Virus record (IMG/VR): IMGVR_UViG_3300033145_003233 | Location: 372,001-436,000 of that record | Strand: one strand, 5' to 3' | Length of the DNA: 64,000 nucleotides | DNA from: a virus | In this document: in pieces, positions 135-8,746 of the stretch | How the letters are laid out: every line of letters begins with the position of its first letter | Position numbering within the stretch: position 1 is the stretch's first letter | Notes under the pieces: generated by a model | What the model was told of the DNA's origin: nothing | Seen by the model: only the letters and a program-made list of their open reading frames with translations | Database searches by the model: none | Position numbers and translations under genes: made by a program

Positions 135-1154
135 TTATCTATTGCTCAAATATTGTTGTTCAATCCAAACATATGTCTTCTCCATCCCCTCTTCTAAAGA
201 AATTGATGGTTCCCAATTCAAGACTTGTCTAATAAAATTATTATCACTATTCCTACCCCTAACCCCCTCTGGAGCATTCAGGTCATAAATTTTCTCAACC
301 TTAATATTAGCAATATCCTCAACAAGTGATACCAATCTATTAATAGAAACAAGTTGACTAGAACCAAGATTAATAGGAGTAGCTATTAATTTGTCACAAT
401 GCATAATCATATCAATACCATTTAGACAATCTTCTATATATGTGAAAGTGCGTGTTTGTAACCCATCTCCCCATATAACTATTTTATGATTACTTGTAGC
501 TTTAGCATCTATAACCTTGCGACAAATAGCAGCTGGAGCTTTTTCTCTTCCTCCTTTCCACGTTTCGAAAGGTCCATAAATATTATGAAAACGAGCAACA
601 AAAGTTTTCATCTTGCGCTCGACCCAATATTCTTTACAAAACATTTCCGATATTAACTTTTCCCAGCCATAACCTCGTTCTGCCATCGCTGGATACGCAT
701 CAGATTCTTTTAATGCAGTACTATCAGAATCACCTTGTAAAGAAATATTGTAAGCACATGCTGATGAAGAAAAAAAATAACGATTGACTCCGGCCTTGTA
801 TGCCGCTTCAATCATATGTGTATTAATTAAAATGCTTCGAAGACAATCAACCCTGAATTTCTGAATAAAACCTATCCCCCCCATATCAGCAGCTAGATTA
901 TATACTTCTACCGCTCCCTCACATACCCTAGCACAATTGTCCTTCTCTGTTAAATCTAGGCATAAAGATTCAACACCCTCTACTCTCTGATGCCATTCAG
1001 AAAGCGGTTTTTTATCCACAGCACGAATTCTAAAAAAACCTAGATTGCTGAAATACTTAACTAAAGAGCCTCCGATAAATCCACCCGCTCCGGTAATGAC
1101 AATCAAATCTTCCTTATCAAGCACATCAATAGCTTGCTTGTTTTCCCCCACCAT
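135..1154 (-). CDS. NAD-dependent sugar epimerase, GDP-mannose 3,5-epimerase-like
   Basis: Extended short-chain dehydrogenase fold acting on a nucleotide sugar. The Rossmann motif TGAGGFIGG is at residues 21-29, an SSSACAY serine segment lies mid-protein, and the catalytic pair is in YGWEK. The stretches ARFHNIYGPF and WGDGLQTRTFTYIEDC are characteristic of GDP-D-mannose 3',5'-epimerases, which interconvert GDP-mannose and GDP-galactose forms. The 339-residue length is normal. The ATG is preceded by GGGGGAG. It is the last gene of a minus-strand run, downstream of the intein/radical SAM half. With the other sugar genes in the window it probably feeds glycan synthesis. The exact substrate cannot be fixed from sequence. 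Confidence 0.85.
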   Translation of the reverse strand: MVGENKQAIDVLDKEDLIVITGAGGFIGGSLVKYFSNLGFFRIRAVDKKPLSEWHQRVEGVESLCLDLTEKDNCARVCEGAVEVYNLAADMGGIGFIQKFRVDCLRSILINTHMIEAAYKAGVNRYFFSSSACAYNISLQGDSDSTALKESDAYPAMAERGYGWEKLISEMFCKEYWVERKMKTFVARFHNIYGPFETWKGGREKAPAAICRKVIDAKATSNHKIVIWGDGLQTRTFTYIEDCLNGIDMIMHCDKLIATPINLGSSQLVSINRLVSLVEDIANIKVEKIYDLNAPEGVRGRNSDNNFIRQVLNWEPSISLEEGMEKTYVWIEQQYLSNR

Positions 1155-1175
1155 AATAACTCCCCCTTGAAAAAA

Positions 1176-1910
1176 TCATACCCCTTTATAAACGTTCTTC
1201 ACATATTTAGACAATATAAGATACGCCATAGTTAAGTTATCGGAATTAAAAACAAAATCTTCATACTTATAAGACGGTGACACTCTTAATAAATGACATG
1301 GAATAGTTGGCCTCACCAAATCCTCTGATATAAATTTACCAATCATTTCCATCTCTTCTTCTATCTTATCGTCAGAAAAATATAATGGGATGCTAATCTC
1401 TATATGAGGATTGGCAAAACGAATAGCCCAGTTATTACAAGCTTGTCGTATTCTATCTTTAATTACATAATGCTTAACACCAGCAATAGAATAAAATGAT
1501 TCCTCAGATCCCTTCCAATCTATATTAATAGCATCAGCTACCAAACAAATATATCTCCATGGCCTTTCCTCGACATAAGCATTAGTCTTTATAATAAACT
1601 TAAGATCATTCTTATGACATTCTTCTCCTAGTTCTATCAAAAATTCATAATGAATGGTAGGTTCATTAAATGTCATGCAAATACTATCACAATCGCTCTG
1701 TTTAGCCATAGTAACCAGCTGTAAGGGATCATAATGAAAAGACTTAACCTGCAAATCTTGCTGACTAATCTGCCAATTTTCACAATTATGAACTATGAAG
1801 CCATTAGCAACATAATTTTCATATCCTGGGACATTAAAATTATATACCTTCTGCTTCTTTTTTAATCTTTTAATAGATTTTATTTTTTTATATTCTAAAT
1901 TATCATCCAT
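1176..1910 (-). CDS. Split intein C-part fused to C-terminal half of an AmmeMemoRadiSam-like radical SAM enzyme
   Basis: Residues 1-42 are a C-terminal intein fragment: block F begins around VYNFNVPGYENYVANG and block G ends FIVHN, followed by the +1 Cys43. The remaining 202 residues begin CENWQISQ and match the post-cluster part of AMMECR1-linked radical SAM proteins, including TFNEPTIHYEF and DAINIDWKG. The other half, at 4423-4995, ends in the intein N-part. Splicing in trans would rebuild a CX3CX2C cluster whose third cysteine is Cys43. The two halves are 2.5 kb apart with other genes between, some on the opposite strand. The Shine-Dalgarno site is weak. The enzyme's substrate is unknown. 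Confidence 0.9.
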   Translation of the reverse strand: MDDNLEYKKIKSIKRLKKKQKVYNFNVPGYENYVANGFIVHNCENWQISQQDLQVKSFHYDPLQLVTMAKQSDCDSICMTFNEPTIHYEFLIELGEECHKNDLKFIIKTNAYVEERPWRYICLVADAINIDWKGSEESFYSIAGVKHYVIKDRIRQACNNWAIRFANPHIEISIPLYFSDDKIEEEMEMIGKFISEDLVRPTIPCHLLRVSPSYKYEDFVFNSDNLTMAYLILSKYVKNVYKGV

Positions 1911-1963
1911 AATATCATTGCACTGTCTTTCTCAGAATTACATGACTCTTATCTCACTTAATT

Positions 1964-3025
1964 TTAAAATGGATTGATTCTTTTATATATATGATTCGAA
2001 AACTTTTTTAGCAACTCTTGCCTTTCATTATAAGAAAGATCTTTTGTCTTATTTAACCAATTTCTACCCTGACATAAGACAACTTTTCCACATCTAAATT
2101 TTATATCATAATATTCATATTCATGCCACGCCTGGCCATATTGACAAGTTATGGACCATCGTTCTGTGTCTAATATTTTTTCGGAGATCCGCAAAGGATT
2201 CCCAATAATCCTTCTTACATCATTTTCGGTAGAACCGACTATGATATAATTCAATTTTGAGGTATAAATAGAAAAATCTTTATGGGCTTTTTTGAAATTT
2301 TCTTCTTCCATTTTTCTTATTTCTCCTATCCTCTTCTTCGCTATCCCCTCCTTTTGTTTATATTTTGATATATCGGAATAACCACTTTTTATTATCTCAC
2401 CATTATTTATCCATGCCTCGAAACCATCATCCCATATAAGATATATCTTATTATTGTTTTTATCGTATTCATAACAAATCCCAACGTTATTGCTGTCTAC
2501 GACCAAGACTCTATTCTCATTTTTATCATACCAGCACTGCCACCCATCTGCCCATTTAACATAAATAAATTTACCATCTACAGTTTTTCTATGCTCGTAA
2601 CCATCAGAAATCTTATAATAAATTGGATTATTACTTTTATCATATTCCCATTCCCACTGCTTATATCCATCAGATTCTTTTTGATAAATTTTATTATTAT
2701 TTTTATCATATTCAGCCCATATCTCATACCCTTCTGGGGACTTCTGATAGATGCAATTTTTACGAGTATCATAATTTTTTATATACCCTATAGCAGAATT
2801 ATATGACCCCACACCTACACTCTTAGTTCCTATCTTCCCAGTATAGGGATTTATATTCCCTTTAGTGCTCCAATTATTATAAGGATTACCATCAGGATTT
2901 GACCTATAGTGAGGAGCTACATAAGTCCCATTTTTGCGATAATATCCCTTAACACTAACATCAGCCATAAGAAGAGAAGTAGCTAGAGACATCATAATAA
3001 CTATTAAAATTATTAACTTTTTCAT
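1964..3025 (-). CDS. Secreted protein with YRKNGTYVAPHYRS domain and DGY/YDKNNN repeats
   Basis: Starting at the ATG preceded by AAGGAA, the protein has a typical export signal (MKKL followed by a long hydrophobic run, likely cleaved near LLMA) and no lipobox cysteine. Next comes the GYYRKNGTYVAPHYRS / NPYNNWSTKGNINPYTG block, common in small secreted bacterial proteins. About five degenerate repeats of W/Y-DK-N-N-KIY...DG[YFW]E follow. The C-terminal part (IVGSTENDVRRIIGNP) resembles the SmpA/OmlA-like fold. A start 27 bases upstream is possible but lacks the SD site. It has its own promoter and a terminator-like hairpin upstream, so it looks like an independent cargo gene. Function unknown. 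Confidence 0.75.
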   Translation of the reverse strand: MKKLIILIVIMMSLATSLLMADVSVKGYYRKNGTYVAPHYRSNPDGNPYNNWSTKGNINPYTGKIGTKSVGVGSYNSAIGYIKNYDTRKNCIYQKSPEGYEIWAEYDKNNNKIYQKESDGYKQWEWEYDKSNNPIYYKISDGYEHRKTVDGKFIYVKWADGWQCWYDKNENRVLVVDSNNVGICYEYDKNNNKIYLIWDDGFEAWINNGEIIKSGYSDISKYKQKEGIAKKRIGEIRKMEEENFKKAHKDFSIYTSKLNYIIVGSTENDVRRIIGNPLRISEKILDTERWSITCQYGQAWHEYEYYDIKFRCGKVVLCQGRNWLNKTKDLSYNERQELLKKFSNHIYKRINPF

Positions 3026-3087
3026 TTTGCTGTTCCTTATCAATTTTTCCACAATATTATCTTAATCTTAATCTCAATCTCAACATT

Positions 3088-3116
3088 ATTATATATTAAA
3101 TTGCTTTCACTTTCAA
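3088..3116 (-). promoter_or_regulatory. Promoter, TTGAAAGTGA class
   Basis: On the minus strand, TTGAAA (3116-3111) followed by GTGA, a 17-base spacer and TATAAT (3093-3088), about 60 bases upstream of the secreted-protein start. It is one of a repeated family of such sites in the window. Confidence 0.7.
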
Positions 3117-3142
3117 GAATTTTTTCATATTTTCAAAAATAA

Positions 3143-3159
3143 AGGAGGATTTTCCTCCT
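3143..3159 (-). terminator. Hairpin, possible terminator of minus-strand read-through
   Basis: Perfect 7-bp inverted repeat AGGAGGA/TCCTCCT with a 3-base loop. On the minus strand it is followed by TTTATTTTTG, a U-rich tail. It lies just upstream of the promoter at 3088-3116, a sensible place to stop transcription arriving from the def/radical SAM operon. Confidence 0.5.
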
Positions 3160-3216
3160 AAACTCATAATTATATAGGTAGAAAAACATAACAAATATAT
3201 TTAATAGGAGATAAAT

Positions 3217-3465
3217 ATGAGATATTTTAGATTAGTATTAAGTGAAAAACGAGGAGAATATTACTTTGACAGTATCCACGAAAAATTCGTCCACGCACAA
3301 AACAGAAATAAAGCATACAAAAAAGCTCTAAAAATAGCTGCCACATTCTTTAAAAACTATAAAAATGCTCCAACAGGAATTCCTGATGAAGATACTATCT
3401 TTTGGTTTAATGGTGATTATGCAGCTATCTGGATAAACGATTTAAAAGAAATTGAAATGATCTAA
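3217..3465 (+). CDS. Small hypothetical protein
   Basis: 82 residues with a good Shine-Dalgarno (AGGAGATAAAT-ATG). It begins MRYFRLVLSEKRGEYYF, has a lysine/alanine-rich central helix and an acidic, aromatic C-terminus. No family recognised. It is the first gene of a short plus-strand island lying between the two halves of the intein-split radical SAM gene. Confidence 0.6.
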   Translation: MRYFRLVLSEKRGEYYFDSIHEKFVHAQNRNKAYKKALKIAATFFKNYKNAPTGIPDEDTIFWFNGDYAAIWINDLKEIEMI

Positions 3466-3533
3466 ATTATGAAATTTCACAATCTTTTACGATATAATAA
3501 TGACAATATTATGTAATAAAATAGGAGTAAAAA

Positions 3534-3683
3534 ATGAAAGATTGTAAAACCATTAGGATAGATGTCCCAACAGAGCTTCATGAGCGACTAAAAAAAAGTG
3601 CAAAAAAAGACTATGGCAATATAACATCTGTCGTTAGGAATTTAATAGTTCAATACGTTAAAGAAAAAGAGAAAGAGGGATAA
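3534..3683 (+). CDS. Ribbon-helix-helix protein paired with HNH nuclease
   Basis: 49 residues. The strand TIRIDVPTELHERLKK is followed by a helix-turn-helix-like SVVRNLIVQYVKEK, the pattern of MetJ/Arc/CopG DNA-binding proteins, which bind operators as dimers. SD is AGGAG. Its stop overlaps the start of the next gene (TAATG), so the two are translationally coupled. At least three similar RHH genes precede nucleases elsewhere in the window. Likely role, inferred: repressor of its own cassette. Confidence 0.75.
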   Translation: MKDCKTIRIDVPTELHERLKKSAKKDYGNITSVVRNLIVQYVKEKEKEG

Positions 3684-4712
3684 TGGGAAAATTTATAAAT
3701 CTAACTGATAAAAAATTTGGGCAATTAACAGTACTATCTCAAGCAAAATATCATAATAAAAGAATCCAATGGAAATGCAAATGCTCCTGTGGAAATTATA
3801 TCAATATTTGCACAAAAGACTTAAATAACGGGAAAAGAATATGCTGTAAAAAATGTGGCAAAACAAACTGCCTTATATGTGGCAAAAGAACAAAAAATAA
3901 AAAGATATGCTCCAACAAATGTAAAATAAAATTTGATAAATTATCAAAAAATCCATTACCACCTTTCTATTCCTATAAACATGCTGCTGCATATCTTCAA
4001 AAAGATCAAAGAACTATTAGAAAATGGGAAAATATTTTATATAAAATAGATAAAAATCTTAAATCTGATTTTAATCTAATAAAATGGAAAAACTGCAAAA
4101 TATGCAGGGATAAAACCCCATCAGCAAAATGCAGAGTAGGATACTGCAAAAAATGCTCTGAAAAAGGACTGGGACGTAAGAATACAGCAAAAATACTTTC
4201 TAAAAAATATAAGGGAAAAGGTAATCCAAATTACGTTCATGGCAAAAAAATGGAACATAGCAGAGAAAGAAGCGTCATGCATGATAGATGGGCAAAAAAA
4301 AATATTAAAAATAAAACCAAATGTATGCATGTTGAGTGGAAGAACAGATAAATTACATGTTCACCATATCTTGTCTTTTTCTATATTTCCGAAATTAAGG
4401 TATAAAATATGGAATGGACTTATTATAAACAGGTTTTATCACATAGAACTTCATCGTCTTCAGTTAGATCTTTTGCTTCTACCCACCTTCTGCTCTTTGT
4501 CATCACTGGATGTTCAGGAGTTAATCTCAACTTTTCTCCTTCTACCTCAAGTTCAATCAATTCTTCAGCTTCCCTATCAACAACATGTCCGACATGAGCT
4601 AATACGAGTTGTGGGTCGCTACTCGAATTATCCCAAACAACTATCTCTTCTCCATCCTCAATTTGCTCAATCTTCTTTGTCCCAATTGGAGTCGAGATTA
4701 GAGTTCCAGTAG
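3683..4712 (+). pseudogene. HNH homing endonuclease, frameshifted
   Basis: The first frame (3683-4351) encodes two CxxC zinc-ribbon pairs, a helix-turn-helix-like YKHAAAYLQKDQRTIRKWE and a further Cys pair, ending near MHDRWAKK. The catalytic HNH segment (CMLSGRTDKLHVHHI through NGLIINRFYHIELH) is in the +1 frame, open to 4712, with homology ending about 4457. The frames meet at a run of nine A after GGGC near 4291-4302, so a one-base slip could join them. This could be decay, programmed slippage or a sequencing error. The 3' end runs antisense into the intein N-part gene. It lies inside the fractured radical SAM locus, where homing nucleases of split inteins are expected. Confidence 0.7.
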
Positions 4713-4995
4713 GCAAACAAAAAACACATTTTAAACTACAACCATATCCACCTATAGAAAAAGTTTTTGTACCAGGGAGAAAATGTTTAAATGGTTTCTT
4801 CTCTATAGGATCTATAGATATGGAAGAAATGTGATGATATCCTGATGGGACTACCTCATCGTCCGCCGCTCTCCTCGCCAAACATTGACCCAACTGCCCA
4901 TTTTTTAACAAACAAGAATTAGGACATAATAGGCATTGCACCTTATCATCTTGCTTTTGAAAAAGCTTTAATGTGTCATTCTTGTTCCTGAACAT
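4423..4995 (-). CDS. N-terminal half of AmmeMemoRadiSam-like enzyme fused to split intein N-part
   Basis: The extein begins MFRNKNDTLKLF. It contains CLLCPNSC, the stretch IDPIEKKPFKHFLPGTKTFS and GYGCSLKCVF, all typical of the AMMECR1-associated radical SAM family. It then switches to a 98-residue Hint module: block A CLPTGTLIS and block B LRLTPEHPVMT (the T-x-x-H motif). The complementary intein C-part is at 1176-1910. The longest frame starts at 5115 inside def; I chose 4995 because GAGGGAAAGAG precedes that ATG and homology starts there. It overlaps the def stop by 20 bases, indicating one operon. The 3' end faces the HNH gene tail to tail. Confidence 0.9.
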   Translation of the reverse strand: MFRNKNDTLKLFQKQDDKVQCLLCPNSCLLKNGQLGQCLARRAADDEVVPSGYHHISSISIDPIEKKPFKHFLPGTKTFSIGGYGCSLKCVFCLPTGTLISTPIGTKKIEQIEDGEEIVVWDNSSSDPQLVLAHVGHVVDREAEELIELEVEGEKLRLTPEHPVMTKSRRWVEAKDLTEDDEVLCDKTCL

Positions 4996-5614
4996 CTCTT
5001 TCCCTCTTGAAATCTTCTGACTCAACAACTTCATAAGCTCCAGAGGTTTCTGTTTCTTCATCTTCTCCCTGAGTTTTTCTCCAAGCACTCCCCACCAAAC
5101 AAAGACCATTAACATGATCTATTTCATGCTGAACTATGATGGACTCAAATCCTACAAACTTATCTTTCTGAGATTTTCCTTCCTCATCTACATAAGCCAC
5201 AACCACCTCTTTAGAACGCTCTACACCAACATAAAAATTCGGAAAAGAAAGACACCCTTCTCTCCCCATTTGTTTTTCTTCTCCCATCTCAATTATTTCA
5301 GGATTCACCAAAACTTTCATATCATTGGTTTTTCTGTTAGGACATAACACCACGACCTTTTTAAGATGCCCTATCTGAGAAGCAGATAATCCCACTCCAG
5401 AATCAGATAATTTCAAAATCTGTTTTAATTCCCTAACAATCGGAGAGATATCTTCCGAGTCATCAACGTTCTCGCAAGGGATCTTTAATATAGGATCATC
5501 CCATTTCCTAATAAGAGACATGAGTTTTTTCCTTCTTAGAAAAAACTCATTCTTACGTTGCAACCTCTTCTTCTTATTATCCCTAGCTCTCGCCTTTCCT
5601 TTAGATTTCGCCAT
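4976..5614 (-). CDS. def: Peptide deformylase
   Basis: Removes the formyl group from initiator methionine. All three metallo-deformylase motifs are present: GVGLSASQ (73-80), EGCLSFP (119-125) and HEIDH (163-167), giving Cys plus two His ligands and the catalytic Glu. The core starts near residue 33 and is preceded by a lysine/arginine-rich 30-residue extension. An acidic tail follows residue 180. SD is GGGAGAT. Deformylases are known in cyanophages and huge phages. With IF-3 in the same genome it suggests control of translation initiation or nascent-chain processing. Confidence 0.95.
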   Translation of the reverse strand: MAKSKGKARARDNKKKRLQRKNEFFLRRKKLMSLIRKWDDPILKIPCENVDDSEDISPIVRELKQILKLSDSGVGLSASQIGHLKKVVVLCPNRKTNDMKVLVNPEIIEMGEEKQMGREGCLSFPNFYVGVERSKEVVVAYVDEEGKSQKDKFVGFESIIVQHEIDHVNGLCLVGSAWRKTQGEDEETETSGAYEVVESEDFKRERDVQEQE

Positions 5615-5623
5615 AATATCTCC

Positions 5624-6025
5624 CTATTTCTGGATTCTTAAATGTATCTCTATCTGCCCCTTCTCATTTTCTCTACGCGAAAAAATATTACAAGAAGCAG
5701 TGCTGCCTACATATCTTTTAATCTTTGTCTCTGAATAAGTTTTATTCAACTGTTTTAATTTAAATCTCTTCCCATGAGAACCAGCATCATAATCATCAGC
5801 ATGCATCACAAATCCCTTTTTAGTTCTCTCGAACCCCACATCTCCATAACCTCCGAATACTCCCTTCCTAACAACAACATGAGCAGTAGGTTTGGCACTA
5901 CTGTATGAATTAGAAAGAACAGTCCCATCATTATGAACCTCTGGCTTATACCCCATATCATTGAGGGCCTGAACTAAACAACCTTCATCTTTAAACTTAA
6001 CCTCTACTACATGGTACTCACTCAT
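5624..6025 (-). CDS. DUF1257 (Ycf35-like) protein, copy 1
   Basis: 133 residues with the DUF1257 pattern: KFKDEGCLVQALNDMGY near the N-terminus, a central HVVVRKG strand, DVGFERTKKGFVMHADDYD, and a C-terminal IEIHLRI strand. It is roughly half-identical to its neighbour at 6040-6444, so the pair is a tandem duplication. Ycf35 is a conserved plastid/cyanobacterial protein of unknown biochemical role that also occurs in some phages. Its frequent partner Ycf46 is encoded at 45.3-46.9 kb. Molecular function unknown. Confidence 0.75.
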   Translation of the reverse strand: MSEYHVVEVKFKDEGCLVQALNDMGYKPEVHNDGTVLSNSYSSAKPTAHVVVRKGVFGGYGDVGFERTKKGFVMHADDYDAGSHGKRFKLKQLNKTYSETKIKRYVGSTASCNIFSRRENEKGQIEIHLRIQK

Positions 6026-6039
6026 AATTCATCCTTTAT

Positions 6040-6444
6040 TTAATTAGTTACTCTAATATGAATTTCTATCTTGCCGTTTTCAAGTTCTTTCCTGTCAGTT
6101 ATATTATAACTGGAAATACTATTAACTGTCTTCCTTAATTTATTCTCAGAATAAGATTTATTCAATTGCTTAATTTTAACTCCTTTTCTCCACGGAGAAT
6201 CAAAAGCTGAAGCATGAAGAACAAACCCCTTCTTCACTCTTTCAAAGCCCACATCATTACTCATTCCCCCCACTTGAGAACGAGGGATAACAATATGTGC
6301 CTTTTGTTTCCTTTTATCTCCACGATATCCATGAAGACTAACGGCATCTTTATGAACCTGAGGATTATAGCCCATCTCTTTTAAAGACTGAATTAGGACT
6401 CCTTCATCCTTGAAACCAACTTCTACTACATGGAATTCTGACAC
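6040..6444 (-). CDS. DUF1257 (Ycf35-like) protein, copy 2
   Basis: 134 residues, paralogous to the 5624-6025 product: FKDEGVLIQSLKEMGY, AHIVIPRSQVGG, DVGFERVKKGFVLHAS and the final IEIHIRV strand align throughout, including the LNKSYSE block. The 14-base gap to copy 1 indicates co-transcription. Both copies keep the glycine and aromatic framework, so neither looks decayed. Function as for copy 1. Confidence 0.75.
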   Translation of the reverse strand: MSEFHVVEVGFKDEGVLIQSLKEMGYNPQVHKDAVSLHGYRGDKRKQKAHIVIPRSQVGGMSNDVGFERVKKGFVLHASAFDSPWRKGVKIKQLNKSYSENKLRKTVNSISSYNITDRKELENGKIEIHIRVTN

Positions 6445-6445
6445 A

Positions 6446-6790
6446 TCATTCCTCTTCGGTTTTATAAACTGTTATTTTATCATCAACATATACAATTTTT
6501 TCCCAATTCTTGAAAACTTCATCAAAATTATCAAATTCATAAACTGTGCTATAAGGATCATTCACTGCATTATTAATAGCATTCTCAAAAGAACAGTAAT
6601 TATCACCGATTTCAGATATATCAATAAAACGATCCGTTCTTAATGAAACCCATTCCCATGTATGATGACCATGACCTACTTTGATTTCTTTTAAAAAGAA
6701 TTTATTTTTAGTATCTGCTGCAAAAACATAAACATGATATTTTGCAATTGTCACAACCTTTTGACCTGTATTTGATTCTAAAATTTTCAT
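6446..6790 (-). CDS. Hypothetical protein
   Basis: 114 residues, no family recognised. A predicted mixed alpha/beta protein: strand-rich N-terminus (KVVTIAKYHVYVFAADT), a GHGHHTWEWVSL turn rich in His and Trp, and an acidic C-terminus ending KTEEE. It overlaps the start of the HAD gene upstream by 4 bases and sits one base from the DUF1257 copy 2 start, so it is part of the same operon. Confidence 0.6.
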   Translation of the reverse strand: MKILESNTGQKVVTIAKYHVYVFAADTKNKFFLKEIKVGHGHHTWEWVSLRTDRFIDISEIGDNYCSFENAINNAVNDPYSTVYEFDNFDEVFKNWEKIVYVDDKITVYKTEEE

Positions 6791-7314
6791 TTATTCTCCT
6801 TCTTTTTTTGTGCTAGTATATGTGTGCAAAAATCATGAACTGCACCTTTACCTCCATAATAATCTGAGGGATAAGTCACATCATCTCTAATTTGAGGAAC
6901 AGCATCAGTAGGACATGCTGTAACTCCTGCTAATTCCATGCACTCAAGGTCATTCTCTGCATCTCCCATGTATGCCACGTTACTCCATTCCAAATCTCTA
7001 CTACGCAAAAAATTATCAACAACGAGAACCTTACTTGTAGCTCCGATTGCTATAATTAATTCCTCATTATACCACTTGCTCCATCTTTCAGAATGATTAC
7101 GAATCCTCCCTACTTGCTTATGTATCACATGATCATGAGAAGCAGTAAGAATAAGTATCATTATCCCCGCTTCCATTACCCTAGTCATAGCATCAAAATC
7201 ACGAGTATAGAATGATTTAATAACATATCCATCTTTGTCAACTTGATAGATTCCATCCGTTAATGTGCCGTCCACATCAAGTACAAGCAGTTCTATCTCT
7301 TTATACATAGTCAT
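6787..7314 (-). CDS. HAD-superfamily phosphatase, KdsC / sialic-acid-9-phosphatase-like
   Basis: Compact C0-type HAD: motif I VLDVDGTLTDG near residue 12, motif II in ILILTAS, and motif IV GDAENDLECMELAG near the C-terminus. It lacks a cap domain, as expected for KdsC and for the phosphatases that dephosphorylate nonulosonic-acid 9-phosphates. The GGKGAVHDF tail matches the KdsC subfamily. NeuB at 7883 and NeuA at 13875 support a role in nonulosonic-acid synthesis. SD GGGAG precedes ATG-ACT-ATG. Its own promoter (7355-7382) lies in the end of the upstream nuclease gene. Confidence 0.85.
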   Translation of the reverse strand: MTMYKEIELLVLDVDGTLTDGIYQVDKDGYVIKSFYTRDFDAMTRVMEAGIMILILTASHDHVIHKQVGRIRNHSERWSKWYNEELIIAIGATSKVLVVDNFLRSRDLEWSNVAYMGDAENDLECMELAGVTACPTDAVPQIRDDVTYPSDYYGGKGAVHDFCTHILAQKKKENK

Positions 7315-7341
7315 AACTCCCTATTCTACAAGCACTTAGTA

Positions 7342-7893
7342 TTACCATTGCCCTATTATACCACATTGACAATCACTTTCAAATTGTTTTTTTCTACTAT
7401 TTTCTTCGATATATAATACGGCATTTTTTAACAAAGGAAGGGGATCTCTAAATTTGCCCCCCAAACCTCTTTCGATCATTCCCAACACGCTATTACATTT
7501 ACGGCAAAGTAATCCTCTGGGATGCCCATTTTTATGATTATGATCTAAACATAATTTATTTTTAAATTCTAATTCATGAACTTCACAAATAGCACATTTA
7601 CCTTGCTGTTTTTTATATATTTCTTCATAACCGCCAATAGTTATGCTGATTTTGCGTTTTTTCCAAACAGACATCCTGCTTTTTAGAGGGTTTTTCTCTC
7701 TATATCTCTTACTTCTTAATTTCCTCTTCTCCTTATCCTCGGCATCTGGATTGTCTTTCCTATATTTCTTAATTCTTTTCAGTATTGCTTCTTTATTTTC
7801 TTTGTAATATTTTTTACTATATTCTTTAAAATACTCTTTCTTTCTTAAACGATATTCTTTATCATATTTTTTCTTGGCTTCTTTAGAGATCAT
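7342..7893 (-). CDS. Endonuclease VII-like HNH nuclease
   Basis: The N-terminal 90 residues are highly charged with repeated YxKExK and KxYRxKN helices, probably DNA-binding. The C-terminal domain has the recombination endonuclease VII pattern: GKCAICE, the catalytic core LCLDHNHKNGHPRGLLC, RKCNSVLG. T4 gp49 of this family resolves DNA junctions, but many phage members are free-standing homing enzymes. SD AGGGGAGG. The gene overlaps the neuB stop by 11 bases, which fits insertion next to that gene. Junction resolvase and homing roles cannot be told apart here. Confidence 0.85.
   Translation of the reverse strand: MISKEAKKKYDKEYRLRKKEYFKEYSKKYYKENKEAILKRIKKYRKDNPDAEDKEKRKLRSKRYREKNPLKSRMSVWKKRKISITIGGYEEIYKKQQGKCAICEVHELEFKNKLCLDHNHKNGHPRGLLCRKCNSVLGMIERGLGGKFRDPLPLLKNAVLYIEENSRKKQFESDCQCGIIGQW
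7355..7382 (-). promoter_or_regulatory. Promoter, TTGAAAGTGA class
   Basis: Minus-strand TTGAAA (7382-7377) with GTGATTG extension, 16-base spacer, TATAAT (7360-7355). It lies inside the 3' end of the endonuclease VII-like gene and would drive the HAD phosphatase and genes below it. Confidence 0.7.
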
Positions 7894-8746
7894 TTCCTCC
7901 CCTTTTGATTTTTAATTTCTCACTATTATTTCTTTCATCTTCCGTCAAGTCAATATTTTTGTAACTCAATGACCTATGACAAGCTTTCAAATTCCTACAA
8001 AGTTTTTGCAATCCAATTGGCTCTAAACTAGCGGCGTTATCTGTTCCCTTGGCCGTCCTGTCTAAAGTAAAATGTCTCTCTATCCACTCTGCCCCTAAAA
8101 CGTAAGCACCAATATCTACAGCTATTCCTAAATGATGCCCGCTATAACCAACCCTCTCAAATACCCTTTTTAATGCTGTAATTTCCATCAAATATAATTC
8201 TTTAAATTTGACAGGATAACCAGAAGTCGTGTGATATACTACTATTCTGTTTTTCTTGTCATGAAAATAATTAAATAATTTTTCTTTCCCTTTTTTAGAA
8301 ATCATCCCCAAAGATATATGAACATCGCCATGATAATTATTAAAAAGAGTATCTAATAAAACATAATTTTCATTCATGGGAGATGGTATTTTGATGAAAT
8401 CTGGGTTAAGAGATGCTATCTCTAACGCAGAGTCCTCATCCCAGACAGAAGTAGAATACCCTATTTCTAACTCATCACAATAATCTTTCAATTCTACATG
8501 TTGAGGAATTGTAAATTCTAGATTAATCCTGTGTTTTAAATATGTTTCTCCAAAAGAATGCACAGGACAAGGATGCGGTCTATTATGCATATTCATAGGC
8601 ACTGCTTTTATCGGATTCCTTTTTTGAAATTTAACATAATCAGCACCGCACAATTTTGCCATTTGAATCATTTTCTTAGCTAAATCTATATCTCCTCGAT
8701 GATTACAACCTATCTCGGAAACTATTTTACATTTCTTGTATTCCAT
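7883..8746 (-). CDS. neuB: N-acetylneuraminate synthase family protein (NeuB)
   Basis: Condenses phosphoenolpyruvate with an N-acyl-mannosamine-type sugar to make a nonulosonic acid. NeuB TIM-barrel signatures are clear: VSEIGCNHRGDIDLAKKMI at the start, ADYVKFQKR, HINLEFTIPQ-type strands, SGHHLGIAVDIGA and the late EWIERHFTLDR. At 287 residues it lacks the C-terminal SAF antifreeze-like domain of full-length NeuB (about 340), as in some short homologues. An RHH gene overlaps its start and an HNH nuclease overlaps its end. Product sugar (sialic, legionaminic or other) cannot be assigned. Confidence 0.9.
   Translation of the reverse strand: MEYKKCKIVSEIGCNHRGDIDLAKKMIQMAKLCGADYVKFQKRNPIKAVPMNMHNRPHPCPVHSFGETYLKHRINLEFTIPQHVELKDYCDELEIGYSTSVWDEDSALEIASLNPDFIKIPSPMNENYVLLDTLFNNYHGDVHISLGMISKKGKEKLFNYFHDKKNRIVVYHTTSGYPVKFKELYLMEITALKRVFERVGYSGHHLGIAVDIGAYVLGAEWIERHFTLDRTAKGTDNAASLEPIGLQKLCRNLKACHRSLSYKNIDLTEDERNNSEKLKIKRGGNDL

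Follow-up and report, generated by a model that had tools for sequence, protein, structure and literature searches.

In the 64,000-nucleotide stretch of viral DNA analyzed here (the window; positions 372,001 to 436,000 of IMG/VR virus record IMGVR_UViG_3300033145_003233, a huge-phage record of 547,943 bp that may be incomplete), the gene of a radical SAM enzyme is divided into two separate genes, each fused to one half of a split intein. As judged from the sequence, it is very probable that the enzyme is assembled by protein trans-splicing and that the insertion is a copy of a mobile unit made up of two intein halves, N-terminal (IntN) and C-terminal (IntC), and an HNH endonuclease gene that lies between them on the opposite strand. 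It also appears likely that this unit, with an intein half and an endonuclease coded on opposite strands, has inserted into phage radical SAM enzymes of several families, in every case at the third cysteine of the cluster motif. The window and its relatives are metagenomic contigs. The two half genes are composed of the following parts, with lengths in amino acids (aa):

4720..4995, minus strand: N-extein, 92 aa, C-terminal sequence GYGCSLKCVF; from the translation and a match to positions 7-86 of the TIGR04337 profile

4423..4719, minus strand: IntN, 98 aa, starting with CLPTGTLIS, containing TPEHPVM and ending with EDDEVLCDKTCL and a stop codon; matches NCBIfam TIGR01445 and the NrdJ-1 intein in the PDB

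1785..1910, minus strand: IntC, 42 aa, ending with VYNFNVPGYENYVANGFIVHN; matches NCBIfam TIGR01443 and PF14890

1176..1784, minus strand: C-extein, 202 aa, starting with CENWQISQ and ending with a stop codon, its +1 cysteine being the third cluster cysteine; matches TIGR04337 at positions 84-282

By translation and geometry, the N-half gene thus occupies positions 4995-4423 and the C-half gene positions 1910-1176, both on the minus strand; the distance between the half genes is 2.5 kb, and the whole insert measures 2,935 bp. The N-half starts at an ATG (4995) that is preceded by GAGG and overlaps the final part of a peptide deformylase gene. IntN passes the NCBIfam model intein_Nterm (TIGR01445; 29.2 bits, cut-off 24.5), while IntC passes both the NCBIfam model intein_Cterm (TIGR01443; 32.6 bits, cut-off 15.6) and the Pfam model Intein_splicing (PF14890; 36.6 bits, cut-off 35.8), which confirms the two intein halves of 98 and 42 residues described in the initial annotation. 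The features of a class 1 intein are present in the N-part (Cys1 of block A, C133 of protein P0001, and the TxxH of block B, TPEH) and, on the separate gene, in the C-part (blocks F and G with the penultimate His, the terminal Asn and the +1 Cys, VHN|C). All splicing residues (C1, TxxH, HN and +1 C) are kept, and both half open reading frames (ORFs) are intact. The best PDB match of IntN and IntC together is the NrdJ-1 split intein (1.4e-9), and the observation of a split intein in the window is confirmed as far beyond chance. No second intein was found elsewhere in the 548 kb record. Among annotated phages, the C-half search gave no match and the N-half search gave weak matches, mostly of IntN to Vibrio phage inteins.

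The junction lies directly before the third cysteine of CSLKCVFC, and when the exteins are joined on paper (CSLKCVF|C) the radical SAM motif CX3CX2C is complete; the earlier claim that the +1 cysteine of the C-extein is the third cysteine of this motif was therefore correct. These data support the view that a split intein interrupts the iron-sulphur (Fe-S) motif of a radical SAM enzyme and that splicing would restore CX3CX2C. Trans-splicing, once the split intein has brought the two half proteins together, would link ...CSLKCVF to CENWQIS..., and the motifs suggest that the iron-sulphur site would be present only in the spliced product. Split phage genes with endonucleases are often intron-borne, and an RNA intron or a trans-spliced RNA was considered for this reason. 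Both halves carry clear intein motifs, and no Rfam match was obtained on either strand of positions 1000-5700 at E values of up to 1, which leads us to reject such an explanation as hardly credible.

The two exteins match TIGR04337 (AmmeMemoRadiSam) at abutting profile positions (7-86 and 84-282) and, joined on paper, give one continuous match (7-271, 183.6 bits). TIGR04337 is the closest curated family of the spliced enzyme. Since its curated cut-off of 220 bits is reached neither by the spliced product nor by a relative on another huge-phage contig (L010; 169.7 bits), the designation 'AmmeMemoRadiSam-like' is right for a loose relative of the family but not for a member. Searches for AMMECR1 (PF01871) and MEMO (PF01875) genes, which had been suggested as a check, found no match in the 548 kb record, which may be incomplete, and membership in an AmmeMemoRadiSam system is therefore not supported. 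An intact copy of the enzyme, which the initial annotation had named as evidence against its reading, was not found either: the same possibly incomplete record holds no other TIGR04337 match. No PDB relative of the spliced enzyme was detected by phmmer. On a 33.7 kb contig classed as viral (L019, 5660-7870), MEMO, AMMECR1-like and radical SAM parts apparently are fused in one ORF of 736 aa, according to our reading of the sequence.

The relative on L010 (350 kb), which is 43% identical, is a single uninterrupted gene that occupies the corresponding position of a syntenic block. This block, found in the window at 4976-8746 and on contigs L010-L017, comprises genes for a NeuB-like protein, a KdsC-like phosphatase, DUF1257 (one or two copies), a peptide deformylase and the radical SAM enzyme, with neuB varying in orientation among the copies. 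In the versions on L012-L017 the radical SAM gene is likewise uninterrupted in all cases. Uninterrupted genes thus recur in these blocks, which shows that empty sites exist and makes it probable that the gene is maintained. An Endonuclease VII-like gene overlaps the end of neuB both in the window (7342-7893) and on L010 (2857-3390), the two being 62% identical.

Relatives of the insertion were sought among IMG/VR phage contigs by scans with the N-half, with an HNH alignment and with an IntN alignment. Two contigs were retrieved by the N-half scan, both with a related intein that splits a spore-photoproduct-lyase-like (SPL, PF20903) radical SAM gene at the third cysteine and with a related HNH on the opposite strand. 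The HNH alignment found 25 loci and the IntN alignment about 35, and counting across our tables the arrangement of IntN, antisense HNH and IntC is present on about 38 phage contigs, nearly always in SPL-like genes and at the same third cysteine. Wherever the HNH core occurs, both intein halves are present as well, except at one locus that is truncated by the contig end. One unit (L149) interrupts a different radical SAM gene, which is SPL-like but more distantly related (GCLGGCMKSYC; C-part 38% identical). In the IntN tree, the inteins of the window, of L149 and of all SPL genes form one clade (support 95/91), within which the other SPL units make up one subclade; the third-cysteine radical SAM inteins of L171 and L173 (QueE-like) fall outside it. 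Intact genes are frequent among SPL relatives (76 of the 80 fetched are uninterrupted), and the extein DNA of most units aligns to them across the junction with no gap at the join. The compact insert is exactly 965 bp long in 13 of 15 measured units (968 and 980 bp in the others), a length that is not a multiple of three. A CATG that contains the IntC start codon and, on the opposite strand, the ATG of the HNH gene is likewise present in 13 of 15 units.

From the occurrence of empty and filled alleles, the common clade and the linkage of HNH to the intein, we infer that the unit spreads by cutting of empty sites. Cleavage by HNH presumably takes place in radical SAM genes that lack the intein, at the codons for the cysteine loop, after which repair would insert a copy of the unit. 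The placement could also be explained by a regulatory switch, in which cluster assembly or redox state controls trans-splicing and the enzyme is made only under low oxygen. In several radical SAM families the intein position coincides exactly with a cysteine that ligates the cluster, and by sequence the +1 nucleophile is also an Fe-S ligand, as such a switch would have it. However, homing to the most conserved codons is a simpler explanation of this placement, and most relatives have no intein, so that we regard a switch as very unlikely. Returning to the mobile unit, a shared homing target, TATGGTTGT, was considered and is suggestive; the resemblance is no greater than that shown by intact TIGR04337-like relatives, and we do not claim it.

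Two of the radical SAM inteins outside the clade are described here in their own right. L173 (5022-5981) carries a contiguous intein at the third cysteine of CX3CX2C in a phage QueE-like radical SAM gene, with extra sequence between the splicing parts. On L171 (4767-6525), a phage radical SAM gene has a split intein at the third cysteine with about 260 bp between the halves, in which no HNH was seen. In addition, L103 (5020-8037) carries a split intein in a gene that was read from its sequence as ribonucleotide reductase-like, with a same-strand ORF of 282 aa between the halves.

In these units the HNH gene begins at the IntC start and extends to about 25 bp from the IntN start, and its last ~88 codons lie opposite IntN. 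The open antisense frame could be a non-coding by-product of the codon bias of IntN, with HNH a passenger in an ordinary fractured gene. Antisense stop codons were counted in shuffles of synonymous codons, in which each IntN retains its protein sequence and its own set of codons, for 17 non-redundant units and 27 control inteins; shuffles of related sequences are not independent, and the units represent three deep lineages (window, L149 and SPL). The shuffles predict 2.3-4.5 stops, whereas none was seen beyond the first ten codons in 17 of 17 units, including the window (0 versus 3.63 expected, P = 0.003) and L149 (0 versus 2.66, P = 0.012). The 27 controls, which lack an antisense HNH, behaved as predicted (158 stops versus 154 expected), and none of them was open. 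Moreover, the similarity of the antisense proteins among window, L149 and SPL units exceeds that of the shuffles (z 3.2-4.4, or 3.5-4.0 with stops ignored), the antisense tail of the window being conserved against the SPL units with a z of about 4. The control L171 gave z values of 0.9 against an SPL unit and 0.0 against L149. In the AlphaFold model, the overlapped HNH residues 186-240 are predicted to be mostly helical, with a pLDDT of 72-86.

Several observations weigh against antisense coding or against a homing unit that is active in the window. Disorder is predicted for the final 33 residues of the HNH tail (pLDDT below 50), and the core motifs of HNH end within the first few overlapped codons; the fold search with the HNH model (Foldseek) gave weak HNH matches, with none below 0.001. 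For control L171 compared with the window, the initial form of the test, which counted stops, gave a smaller excess (z 1.85). Another antisense offset (0) is also raised (z 2.5-3.2) because codon positions are shared, and the stop test is therefore cleaner than the similarity test. The target-site DNA of the window agrees with that of SPL genes in at most 22 of 36 bases upstream and weakly downstream, and the IntC start has no strong ribosome-binding site. Finally, the HNH gene of the window appears to be inactivated by a 4-bp frameshift, for which mutation, assembly error and recoding are indistinguishable. In view of the stop counts, the similarity among lineages and the predicted helices, an origin of the open frame in codon bias alone seems improbable. 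We conclude from the sequences that HNH is indeed encoded antisense to IntN, with at least the initial ~50 codons of the overlap being of importance.

Between the two halves, the window contains the following features:

3683..4322, plus strand: first frame of the HNH endonuclease, with an extra N-terminal domain, NUMOD1 and a zinc ribbon; matches the HNH of contig L101 and PHROG 374

4323..4712, plus strand: second frame of HNH, with LHVHHI and further on YHIELHRLQLDLLLLP, from the frame translations; antisense to IntN from 4426

3534..3683, plus strand: RHH (Arc-like) regulator, whose stop codon and the start codon of HNH overlap (TAATG); matches PHROG 582 (Arc-like repressor, 2.7e-5)

3217..3465, plus strand: ORF of 82 aa, cargo, with no confident family match in profile searches

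1964..3052, minus strand: ORF of 362 aa, cargo, with an N-terminal hydrophobic, signal-like stretch; matches PHROG 29674 (unknown function, 5.9e-19)

The HNH of the window is 39% identical over 140 aa to that of L101, and its first frame matches the HNH endonucleases of PHROG 374 (1e-9). The ORF at 3683-4351 stops early, and the catalytic part (LHVHHI...YHIELH) goes on in the +1 frame in the ORF at 4239-4712, both on the plus strand. By-eye alignment to relatives places the frameshift near 4320-4331, at AAATGTATGCATGTTG, where it is best read as an insertion of 4 bp. The HNH motif lies in an intact ORF in the SPL units (HNH PHROGs, 1e-4), whereas the copy in the window is frameshifted. The ORF of 82 aa, RHH and HNH are oriented opposite to the intein-bearing halves, and the ORF of 362 aa is on the same strand; the match of the latter to PHROG 29674 spans about residues 9-76. 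A pattern scan alone indicated a promoter-like site just upstream of the 362 aa ORF (3116-3088, minus strand, 11 of 12 consensus positions), a terminator-like hairpin between the halves (3159-3143, minus strand) and a promoter-like site before RHH (3469-3498, plus strand).

The frameshift and the 1.8 kb of unrelated genes between the halves would also fit a decaying gene, in which a later insertion of HNH and cargo broke an intein gene, splicing was lost and the enzyme is disappearing. In contrast, neither ORF is disrupted, the splicing residues are all in place and radical SAM coverage is complete, the split form is conserved in many phages, and the gene lies within a conserved block; decay of this kind is accordingly unlikely. 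Judged by its sequence, the window holds a derived copy of the mobile unit, in which HNH is frameshifted and 1.8 kb of cargo (RHH, ORF82 and ORF362) has been added, with the splicing parts intact. Homing endonucleases usually decay after spreading, and this copy would represent a late stage in the life of the unit. Because its HNH appears inactivated and cargo separates the halves, it is probably no longer homing. The initial annotation had correctly placed an HNH gene, an RHH gene and cargo in the 2.5 kb between the halves, but the HNH gene is frameshifted. Its split-intein reading and its fractured-gene arrangement, with collinear extein halves each fused to an intein half and an endonuclease gene between them, stand; it had missed the broken HNH, the wider clade in radical SAM genes and the antisense position of HNH.

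Fractured genes and split inteins with HNH genes are already known. Dassa et al. in 2009 reportedly described fractured genes of phage-like source, with split intein halves on separate genes and a free-standing homing endonuclease in the gap. The window has in common with them the separate halves, the intervening endonuclease gene and the phage-like source, and differs in its radical SAM host and its HNH endonuclease, and presumably also in the antisense overlap with IntN. The IntN of NrdJ-1 (PDB 8ubs), the best solved relative, ends shortly after the same DLT-DDE motif; its host protein is a ribonucleotide reductase, unlike the radical SAM host found here. In the jumbo phage MIJ3, a split PolB intein has an HNH gene (orf154) between its halves (PMC6892783, LR588166). 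Jumbo phage, split intein and intervening HNH are thus shared, but the host gene is polB and HNH lies on the polB strand with an overlap of 8 bp only. A comparable case is the methylase gene of phage ShiLan, which carries an insertion that encodes an HNH out of frame; unlike the units described here, this insertion lacks a splicing domain, and it is believed to be retained in the protein (PMC11855218). NCBIfam NF038136 (intein-containing Rv2578c-family radical SAM) gives a weak match of 13.6 bits across the cysteine motif and the IntN start, but models a contiguous intein in another enzyme family. In the literature searched we found no paper on inteins in SPL or Rv2578c genes, and titles and abstracts revealed no antisense HNH in a split intein; this check covered neither Dassa 2009 nor a study of actinobacteriophage inteins of non-canonical architecture (10.1101/2025.01.02.630785), which could contain a similar case. 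The radical SAM host enzymes are new, as is, so far as checked, the antisense dual coding.

Antisense coding of HNH would go together with the split intein and tie the survival of HNH to IntN. If this is true, an endonuclease coded opposite a needed intein half would be slower to decay, and neither the intein half nor the homing endonuclease could decay freely without harming the other. It also suggests why the intein is split, since an antisense endonuclease would be untranslatable within a single intein chain. For protein engineering, the placement at the cysteine may supply new split inteins of natural origin whose +1 cysteine doubles as an Fe-S ligand, and for comparison the same phage enzymes are available as both intact and interrupted alleles.

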